From Streptomyces sp. NBC_00525 (GTDB lineage Bacteria > Actinomycetota > Actinomycetes > Streptomycetales > Streptomycetaceae), in the NCBI RefSeq assembly GCF_036346595.1, contig NZ_CP107834.1:248001-312000 (forward strand): a stretch of DNA of 64,000 nucleotides, in the 5' to 3' direction. Below are positions 1-17,337 of the stretch, one piece after another. The notes beneath the pieces are model-generated. The model saw only the letters and a program-made list of their open reading frames with translations. It was not told where the DNA came from and ran no database searches. The translations under genes were made by a program, and so were the position numbers. Position 1 is the first letter of the stretch. Every line of letters starts with the position of its first letter.

Positions 1-2956
1 CGAAGAGTCCGGCGAGGATCTCCTCCATGGCGCTGCGCGGGGCCCGGCCCGCCGCCGTGCGCGGGGCGGTGGGGGCGGGCAGGGCGGCCCGGTCGATCTT
101 GCCGTTGGGGGTGAGCGGGAGGACGTCCAGCGGCTGGATCACGGCGGGCACCATGTAGGCGGGCAGGTGCCGGCCGACGTGTGCGGCGAGCAGGCCGGGG
201 TCCGGGGACTCGCCGGGCGCGAGGACGACGTAGGCGGTGAGGGTGCGGTCGCCGGGCAGGTCCTCGCGGACGAGGACGCAGGCGGCGCGCACCGCGGGGT
301 GGTCGCGCAGAACCGTTTCGATCTCGGCGGGTTCGATGCGGTGGCCGCGCAGTTTGATCTGCTGGTCGGCGCGTGCGACGTAGCGCAGGGTGCCGTCGGC
401 GTCCTGGCGGACCAGGTCGCCGGTGCGGTACATGCGGGCCCCGCCGCCAGCGAAGGGGTCGGCGGTGAAGCGGGTGGCGGTGAGGGCGGCGCGGCCGAGG
501 TAGCCGCGGGCGACGCCGGCGCCGGCGAGGTACAGCTCGCCCTCGGCGCCGGGCGGTACGGGGCTCAGGGCCGCGTCCAGGACGTAGGCGCGCATGCCGT
601 CCAGCGGGTGCCCGATGGGCGGGGCGCCGTCCGGGGCGTGGCCGGGGCTGATGTGGTGGCCGGTGGCGAAGGTGGTGGTCTCGGTGGGTCCGTAGACGTG
701 CAGGACGGTGGTGCCGGGGTGGTCGGCGGCGACGCGCTGCATGACGCCGGGGGCGGCGGCCTCGCCGCCGGCGGCGACGAGCCGGAGCTGTCCGAGGGCG
801 CCGGGGTCGGTCTCGGCCAGGACGTTGAACAGGGCCGTGGTGAGGAACACCGCGGTGACGCCGTGCCGGGTGGCCATGTTCCGCAGGACGTCGGGCTGGA
901 GCGGCCCCTCGGGGGCGACGACGACTCGGCCGCCGCGCAGCAGCGGGGTCCAGATCTCGAAGGTGGAGGCGTCGAAGACGTACGCGGAGTGCAGCAGGAC
1001 GGCGTCGGCGGCGCCGTCGTCCCAGCCCCGGTGTGCGGCGAGGGCGGCGATGTCGGCGTGGCTGACGCCGACGCCCTTGGGCAGTCCGGTGGAGCCGGAG
1101 GTGAACATGACGTACGCGAGCCGGGTGCCGCCGGGTGCGGCGGGCAGCGGGCCCGGTGCGGCGGGTCCTCCGGTCTGGATGCGGCCGGCCCGGTCCACGG
1201 TGAGGACGGCCGTGTCGGGGCCGAGTCCGCGGACCCAGGGCAGGTCGGCGGTGGTGTCGTCGACGACCAGGACGCGCAGCGGGACGACCTCGGTGACCCG
1301 GTGGAGCCGTTCGGTGGGCCAGCGCGGGTCCAGGGGTACGTAGGCGCCGCCGGCGCGCAGGGCGGCGAGGGAGGCGGTGACGGTGGCGGCGGAGCGGGCG
1401 AGAAGGATGCCCACGCCGTCCTCGGCGCCGGTGCCGAGGCCGGTGAGGGCTGCGGCGAGCCGGTCGGCGAGTTCGGTGAGCTGCCGGTACGTCAGCTGTT
1501 CGCCGGCCCCGGTGACGGCGACGGCGTCCGGGTGGCGGGCGGCCCGCTCGGCGACGGCTTCGGGGATGCTCAGGGCCGCCGTGCCGGCGGGGAGGGCGGC
1601 GCCGGTGCCGCGGGCGACGAGTTGTTCACGTTCGCCGTCGAGGAGGAAGGGCGCGGTGTCGGCGCGCCGGTCGAGGTCCTGGGCGAAGGCCGTCAGGAGC
1701 TGCCGTGTCCGGGAGACGGTTTCGGCGACGGTCTGGCGGTCGAGGACGGCGGCCCGGTAGCCGAAGGTGATGCGCAGGGTGTCGCCGGGGGCGACGGTGA
1801 GGGTGAGCGGGTAGTGGGCGGCGTCGGTGCCGCTGAATCCGGTGACGGCGAGGCCGGGCAGGCCCTGCTGGGCGGTGCGCAGGGCTTCGGCGTCCATCGG
1901 GTAGTTCTCGAACACGACGAGGGTGTCGAAGAGTTCGTCGAGGCCGGTGACGCCCCGGATGTCGCTGAGGCCGACGTGCTGGCTGCCGAGGAGCCCGCCC
2001 TGTTCGCTCTGGAGCCGGGTCAGGAGGGCGGCCAGGGTCTCGCCGGGGGCGGGGCGCAGCCGTACGGGCACGGTGTTGATGAACAGGCCGACCATGGATT
2101 CGACGCCGGGGATCTCCGGCGGTCGTCCGGAGACGGTGGTGCCGAAGACGACGTCGTCGCGGCCGGTGAGGTGGCCGAGCAGCAGGCCCCAGGCGCCCTG
2201 GACCAGGGTGTTCAGGGTGATGCCGTGGGCGCGGGCCGTCTCGCGCAGCCGGCTGGTCGTGTCGGCGTCCAGGTCGAGGACGAGCGTCTCGGGCAGTTCG
2301 GCTCCGCCGTCCGGGCCTTCGCGGTCCGCGAGGAGGGTCGGGGTCTCGATGCCGGCGAGGGCGGTGGACCAGGCGTCGAGGGCGGCGGCACGATCCTGCT
2401 GGGAGAGCCAGACGAGGTAGGCGCGGTACGGGGTGACGCGGGGCAGGGCGGTGTCGTCGCCGCCGGTGGCGTACAGCTCGAACAGTTCCCGTACGAGCAG
2501 CGGCAGCGACCAGCCGTCGAACAGGATGTGATGGCTGGTCATGACCAGGCGGTGCCGGTCCGGCCCGGTGCGGACGAGGGTGAACCGCAGCAGGGGCGGC
2601 GTCGCCAGGTCGAAGCGGCGGGTGCGGTCGGCGGCGAGGAAGGCGGTGAGCCGGTCGGGTACCTCGTCGGCGCCGGTCAGGTCCAGTTCCTCCAGGGGTA
2701 CGGGGACCTCGGCGGCGACCGCCTGCACGGGTTCGTCCAGGTCCTCGTGGAGGAAGCCGACGCGCAGGTTGGCGTGGCGGCGCAGCAGGCCGGCGACGGC
2801 GGCGCGCAGGGTGGGGACGTCGACGGGGCCTTCGAGGTCGAAGACGAACTGCGCGGTGTAGACGTCCACGGCGTGCGAGTCGTAGAGGGCGTGGAAGTAC
2901 ATCCCGGCCTGCAGCGGCGTCAGCGGGAGTACGTCCTCCAGTTGGAACCCGTTCAC
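1..2956 (-). CDS. Nonribosomal peptide synthetase, C-A-T..., 3' end outside window
   Basis: This is the 5' part (985 codons) of a second peptide synthetase gene; the rest lies beyond the left edge. Its GTG start overlaps the TGA of the upstream synthetase as GTGA, so the two are probably translationally coupled. Domains seen are C (about residues 5-440), A (about 465-960) and the start of a carrier domain. The C domain opens with LTPLQAGMYFH, the signature of condensation domains that take a D-configured donor, and has an intact HHILFDG active site. This agrees with the epimerase that ends the upstream protein. The A domain has MFTSGSTGLPKG, YGPTETTT and the NGK lysine. The pocket residues I read are D-A-F-F-V-A-V-T-F, identical to module 1 of the upstream protein. 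Any later modules or thioesterase are not visible. Confidence 0.95.
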   Translation of the reverse strand, partial: MNGFQLEDVLPLTPLQAGMYFHALYDSHAVDVYTAQFVFDLEGPVDVPTLRAAVAGLLRRHANLRVGFLHEDLDEPVQAVAAEVPVPLEELDLTGADEVPDRLTAFLAADRTRRFDLATPPLLRFTLVRTGPDRHRLVMTSHHILFDGWSLPLLVRELFELYATGGDDTALPRVTPYRAYLVWLSQQDRAAALDAWSTALAGIETPTLLADREGPDGGAELPETLVLDLDADTTSRLRETARAHGITLNTLVQGAWGLLLGHLTGRDDVVFGTTVSGRPPEIPGVESMVGLFINTVPVRLRPAPGETLAALLTRLQSEQGGLLGSQHVGLSDIRGVTGLDELFDTLVVFENYPMDAEALRTAQQGLPGLAVTGFSGTDAAHYPLTLTVAPGDTLRITFGYRAAVLDRQTVAETVSRTRQLLTAFAQDLDRRADTAPFLLDGEREQLVARGTGAALPAGTAALSIPEAVAERAARHPDAVAVTGAGEQLTYRQLTELADRLAAALTGLGTGAEDGVGILLARSAATVTASLAALRAGGAYVPLDPRWPTERLHRVTEVVPLRVLVVDDTTADLPWVRGLGPDTAVLTVDRAGRIQTGGPAAPGPLPAAPGGTRLAYVMFTSGSTGLPKGVGVSHADIAALAAHRGWDDGAADAVLLHSAYVFDASTFEIWTPLLRGGRVVVAPEGPLQPDVLRNMATRHGVTAVFLTTALFNVLAETDPGALGQLRLVAAGGEAAAPGVMQRVAADHPGTTVLHVYGPTETTTFATGHHISPGHAPDGAPPIGHPLDGMRAYVLDAALSPVPPGAEGELYLAGAGVARGYLGRAALTATRFTADPFAGGGARMYRTGDLVRQDADGTLRYVARADQQIKLRGHRIEPAEIETVLRDHPAVRAACVLVREDLPGDRTLTAYVVLAPGESPDPGLLAAHVGRHLPAYMVPAVIQPLDVLPLTPNGKIDRAALPAPTAPRTAAGRAPRSAMEEILAGLF

Positions 2957-17337: not shown

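Follow-up and report, generated by a model that had tools for sequence, protein, structure and literature searches.

We analyzed a 64,000-nucleotide stretch of the 7.1-Mb genome of Streptomyces sp. NBC_00525 (contig NZ_CP107834.1, positions 248,001 to 312,000; G000:C1:248001-312000), referred to here as the window, at whose left end lie the genes of a nonribosomal peptide synthetase (NRPS). Two large genes on the minus strand encode NRPS 1, with four modules, and NRPS 2, with two, the second of which extends beyond the left edge of the window; an mbtH-like gene adjoins them upstream (Table 1). Domain content, specificity codes, and domain trees, considered together, suggest that these proteins would constitute a linear six-module line making the aldehyde acyl-Ile/Val-Gln-Ile/Val-D-Gln-Ile/Val-phenylalaninal, and we consider it probable that the product is a flavopeptin or a close congener.

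Modules, specificity codes, and domain types of the synthetase

The modules of both proteins are built of condensation (C), adenylation (A), and thiolation (T) domains, with an epimerization (E) domain at the end of NRPS 1. Pfam matches in NRPS 1 comprise six Condensation stretches, four AMP-binding, and four PP-binding, the count of six arising because the match to C1 splits in two pieces. The terminal domain of NRPS 2 matched NAD_binding_4 (PF07993, 9.9e-61) and keeps both the glycine-rich motif TGASGFLG and the motif YSRTK; C-A-T modules ending in a thioester-reductase domain, the arrangement that marks a reductase-terminated NRPS, were found here.

Table 1. Features of the NRPS locus, with the evidence for each; residue types are predictions. 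Coordinates are window positions unless prefixed, and negative values lie left of the window.
Feature	Coordinates	Strand	Evidence
NRPS 1 (4815 amino acids), C1-A1-T1-C2-A2-T2-C3-A3-T3-C4-A4-T4-E	2953..17400	-	Pfam, motifs, domain boundaries
NRPS 2 (2519 amino acids), C5-A5-T5-C6-A6-T6-reductase	start 2971, end -4588 (G000:C1:243412); L002:3412-10971	-	Pfam, motifs, boundaries
NRPS 2, part inside the window (C5, A5, start of T5)	1..2971	-	
C1, predicted starter-type condensation domain, motif HHIAVDG	15859..17400	-	C-domain tree, motif
A1, DAFFAGVTF, Ile/Val type	14344..15858	-	motifs, EntF-aligned code
A2, DAWQLGLID, Gln type	11122..12660	-	motifs, EntF-aligned code, printed Gln codes
A3, DAYFCGVTF, Ile/Val type	7939..9456	-	motifs, EntF-aligned code
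A4, DAWQAGLID, Gln type	4750..6288	-	motifs, EntF-aligned code
E, epimerization domain of module 4, motif HHLSVDAVSWR	2956..4500	-	identities, C-domain tree, motif
C5	1598-2971	-	
A5, DAFFAGVTF	77-1597	-	EntF-aligned code
A6, DAWTVAAVC, Phe type, left of the window	L002:4909-6429	-	EntF-aligned code
mbtH-like gene, adjoining the synthetase upstream	17680..17925	-	PF03621, 2e-24

Specificity positions were read by aligning all A domains to EntF of Escherichia coli K-12, whose published code is DVWHFSLVDK; as a control, EntF read by the same rule gave DVWHFSLVD. The alignment corrects a register error in codes read by hand in a first-pass annotation of this DNA, where the positions before the G-G-E motif, 299 and 301, had been taken one residue too far upstream. 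The Cys that had been called unusual at position 301 of the even-numbered domains is residue 300, a position at which EntF has Cys as well, and residue 301 is Gly; the codes of modules 2 and 4, given there as identical, differ at residue 299, which is Leu in A2 and Ala in A4. Other parts of that reading held: the motifs said to be shared by the odd and by the even domains were present as quoted, the Val/Ile-type reading of the odd codes is supported as a branched-aliphatic class, and of the Gln/Glu-type reading of the even codes the Gln type is supported, the oddity at position 301 falling away. Phe278 of the odd domains was likewise kept, although this depends on an ungapped reading. Residue 278 was counted three residues past the G-V-T motif, and the EntF control does not cover it in the odd domains; MAFFT against EntF places a gap in this stretch, as does HMMER against the second LgrA A domain, and HMMER against the first LgrA A domain places none. 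We retained Phe278 because the resulting code is near the printed code DAFFLGVTFK.

That printed code is associated with Ile or Val (PMC2533009), DAWQFGLIDK and DAWQTGLIDK are listed as Gln-loading codes in a published table (PMC2866473), and DAWTVAAVCK, from a Streptomyces NRPS, has been given as a predicted Phe code (PMC9866976). We accordingly predict from the codes that A1, A3, and A5 load Ile/Val, A2 and A4 load Gln, and A6 loads Phe.

The genome as a whole is NRPS rich, with 75 Condensation matches (some being pieces of one domain), including matches on a 297-kb second contig. A quick tree of C domains took in 53 of the other C and E domains of this genome, fewer than all 75 matches, and used the Shimodaira-Hasegawa approximate likelihood ratio test (SH-aLRT), not the bootstrap, for support. 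C1 grouped (99) with the C domain of EntF and with three C domains, each the first C match of its own open frame, and it is therefore predicted to be of the starter type. The likeness to EntF concerns this domain: EntF takes an aryl acid as its donor and has a thioesterase at its end, whereas release from the synthetase described here is predicted to be reductive. C5 grouped (99) with the same-genome domains C1_419888 and C1_415592; in its frame, C1_419888 comes after C1_421112, which groups with the E domain of the window (98), and the larger group containing C5 (94) also takes in C1_5474323, the domain after the E domain C1_5472907. Since C5 is thus grouped with C domains located after E domains, it would be D-accepting, as expected after an E domain, and because the E domain lies in module 4, residue 4 is predicted to be D-Gln.

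Conservation of the three-gene unit

From a scan of species-representative genomes, 79 loci were retained; 35 of these reach 60% identity or more in C5 and were examined as candidate orthologous loci. The codes fit in 32. In 24 of these, all five codes from A2 to A6 were read and followed the order Gln-type, aliphatic, Gln-type, aliphatic, Phe-type in every one, and eight further loci, cut by contig ends or with missed domains, fit where they could be read; small variants occur among the fitting loci, such as DAWQLGLIE in L009 and DACFAGATF in L028. Those not counted are L030, which gave no code, and L031, which gave a partial set, the motifs of both being spread over several frames, and L034, with a different order. 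The last, from Streptomyces sp. DvalAA-14, is a related line with the codes DAWTVAAVC, DAYFCGVTF, and DAYFCGVTF, followed by DLTKIGEVG after the shared C domain. Module 1 carried DAFFAGVTF in 8 of 14 starter-domain loci, the code not being read in the other 6. The E motif was kept in all 24 loci examined. The glycine motif of the reductase was present together with YxxxK in 22 of them; of the two loci where this was missed, L014 lies at a contig end.

Among the best 120 of 5969 protein homologues, the A5/A6 code pair was kept in 118 (residue 278 was not read for A5 in 13 of these and for A6 in one) and the reductase glycine motif in 116. S. pratensis is rich in orthologues (P0058, 188 member sequences). 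Of 295 genomes sampled evenly across the genus, 20, the genome of the window among them, have C5 at 68% identity or higher, and matches at 51 to 57% occur in three others; because this marker domain recurs to such an extent, the product may be a protease inhibitor that is common in nature in the genus.

A homologue of mbtH lies directly upstream of the synthetase in all 13 related genomes fetched, as judged by tblastn; a separate clustering of upstream genes was insensitive, grouping mbtH in only 5 of 14 sets. Other neighbors were considered as members of the cluster and rejected: upstream, the transporter, TetR-type regulator, oxidoreductase, and others match in only two to four of the 13 genomes, and downstream, the aldo/keto reductase matches in two of six genomes fetched and the aldehyde dehydrogenase in one of six. 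As far as examined, the conserved unit would consist of three genes, mbtH and the two NRPS genes, and would represent a compact peptide-aldehyde cluster.

Predicted product and its relation to the flavopeptins

In the mechanism that we propose, the two NRPS proteins and the MbtH helper would act as one linear line. C1 would acylate the first amino acid, A1 to A6 would load the residues predicted from their codes, the E domain would epimerize Gln4 to D-Gln, and C5, as a D-accepting domain, would hand the tetrapeptide over to the second protein. By analogy with the flavopeptins and from its domain type, the terminal reductase would use NAD(P)H to free the chain as a C-terminal phenylalanine aldehyde, and this aldehyde would inhibit proteases covalently.

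A described product class, the flavopeptins, reportedly first described by Chen et al. in 2013, fits this line by type. Flavopeptins, from Streptomyces sp. NRRL F-6652, are acyl-protected peptide aldehydes of NRPS origin whose assembly involves a terminal reductase domain; they inhibit cysteine proteases as well as the chymotrypsin-like and caspase-like sites of the proteasome (PMC4071589, PMC10548850, PMC8009326). The two systems are alike in being Streptomyces NRPS with reductase release, and C1, being predicted to be of the starter type, may add an acyl cap such as flavopeptins carry. We regard the locus as likely to be a flavopeptin cluster, the match being by description of the product class. 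Leupeptin, antipain, chymostatin, and MAPI are shorter peptides, and the line described here differs from them in having six modules and a predicted starter C domain. These four are likewise peptidyl aldehyde protease inhibitors, several with a ureido N terminus; antipain, like the flavopeptins, is released by a reductase domain, and the targets of such peptide aldehydes are residues in the active sites of serine or cysteine proteases, to which they bind (PMC10548850). Among the papers listed in searches of open-licence PubMed Central literature, none was seen to give this six-module code pattern. The suggestion of an undescribed pathway, made in the first-pass annotation, is not supported, given how widespread the family is and the fit of the flavopeptins; the pathway is real but probably not new, an ordinary member of a class already known, and a possible undescribed repeating peptide is replaced by a concrete, testable structure.

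Several points weigh against this assignment. The likeness to the flavopeptins concerns the description of a product class and not residue order, module number, codes, or sequence, and both product and release are predicted here from the genes. Residue 299 is Ala, Cys, or Leu in the codes of this line, compared with Leu, Phe, and Thr in the printed reference codes, and Phe278 of the odd domains rests on the ungapped reading; the Ile/Val and Gln assignments are therefore given as predictions. An acyl-CoA ligase was not found within the conserved three-gene unit. Finally, reductase domains can go on to the alcohol, and a second reduction often occurs (PMC8949500).

The same line and mechanism might yield an undescribed acyl hexapeptide aldehyde, or alcohol, that is not a flavopeptin, a reading that overlaps with ours in all but that name; it draws on the frequency of second reductions in reductase domains (PMC8949500) and on the fact that the flavopeptin likeness comes from a description and not from a flavopeptin gene cluster. 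We nevertheless think it rather unlikely, since the genus and the reductive release, acyl cap, and inhibition of the chymotrypsin-like proteasome site reported for flavopeptins all fit what is predicted here. The orthologue is, moreover, common in S. pratensis, formerly named S. flavogriseus, a name that fits that of the compound. Somewhat more doubtful still is the proposal that the product is an acyl-(Ile/Val-Gln)2-Ile/Val-phenylalaninal not yet described, different from flavopeptins and a common protease inhibitor of Streptomyces, and that the final A domain of the line would have come from a Phe specificity core moved into an even-type frame. Cyclization of the released aldehyde head to tail into an imine, as in nostocyclopeptides, occurs in some reductase-terminated lines (PMC8949500), but we consider it very improbable here, as the starter-type C1 predicts an acylated N terminus and no free amine.

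Alternation of the adenylation domains and its origin

The alternation that the first-pass annotation described for five A domains is real in that there are two classes, with four of the five domains in NRPS 1 and the fifth in NRPS 2, but the line has a sixth, Phe-type module left of the window. Odd A domains are 63 to 67% identical to one another and A2 and A4 are 65% identical, whereas odd-even pairs share 46 to 51%. The A-domain tree that had been suggested as a check was run as a quick tree of 64 domains, including 39 further ones from the same genome (of the 40 read, a truncated domain of 394 amino acids was omitted), again with SH-aLRT support and no bootstrap; the module labels of L025 and L032 in it are ordinals, one module having been missed in each. 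Odd domains and their orthologues formed one clade (100, 11 rows), as did even domains and theirs (99, 8 rows), the sister of the even clade being A6 with its orthologues (98).

The other domains do not follow this order. C1 is 20 to 26% and C5 19 to 33% identical to all other C domains, the E domain included; C2, C3, C4, and C6 are mutually 56 to 62% identical without odd/even order and form one clade (97) with no internal resolution. Odd T domains are 64 to 70% identical, T2 and T4 only 42%. Duplication of a whole C-A-T-C-A-T dimodule, as first supposed, is therefore not supported, given that the C domains do not alternate (C1 being starter-type and C5 lying in the post-E group) and that T2 and T4 are so dissimilar, although branching within the clade of C2, C3, C4, and C6 is not resolved and the odd T domains are alike. 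A history of repeated A(-T) units, or one of exchange among the modules, would fit better. An undescribed pathway making a repeating dipeptide, the backbone predicted in the first-pass annotation, would agree with the two A-domain clades and their alternating codes, but we give it very little credence, since the Phe code of module 6 and the reductase that ends the line break the repeat, the C domains do not alternate, and a fitting product class has already been described.

In 22 of 24 other loci, the A2 to A6 domains read are at least 73% identical to the orthologue in the window (64 to 74% in L028 and L032), whereas paralogues within one line are 58 to 71% identical, so that the duplications are mostly old. 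An exception is S. noursei (L028), in which A2 and A4 are 92% identical, compared with 58 to 70% in the 18 other lines, the window included, where both were read, which suggests recent gene conversion between modules.

A6 looks like a mosaic of a Phe-type core and an even-type C-terminal part. In its specificity core it shares 61% and 57% identity with the two other same-genome domains that have Phe-like codes (DAWTVAAVC and DASTVAAVC) and at most 45% with every other one compared, whereas its C-terminal part is nearest to A2 (69%) and A4 (68%). The N-terminal part is nearest to yet another domain of the genome (61%, against 55% for A2), and a simple one-piece swap therefore does not fit.

Paired A codes were also seen elsewhere in this genome: another NRPS at G000:C1:5849757-5859198 (L110/L111) carries DALQYGGGF twice and DALLYVGIY twice, each pair being very close in the tree. 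Within the window, positions 52590-60879 hold a type II polyketide-like cluster with a ketosynthase, an acyl carrier protein, polyketide cyclases, a SchA/CurD-like protein, a cupin, an O-methyltransferase, and a FAD hydroxylase, which looks like a spore-pigment (whiE-type) locus.
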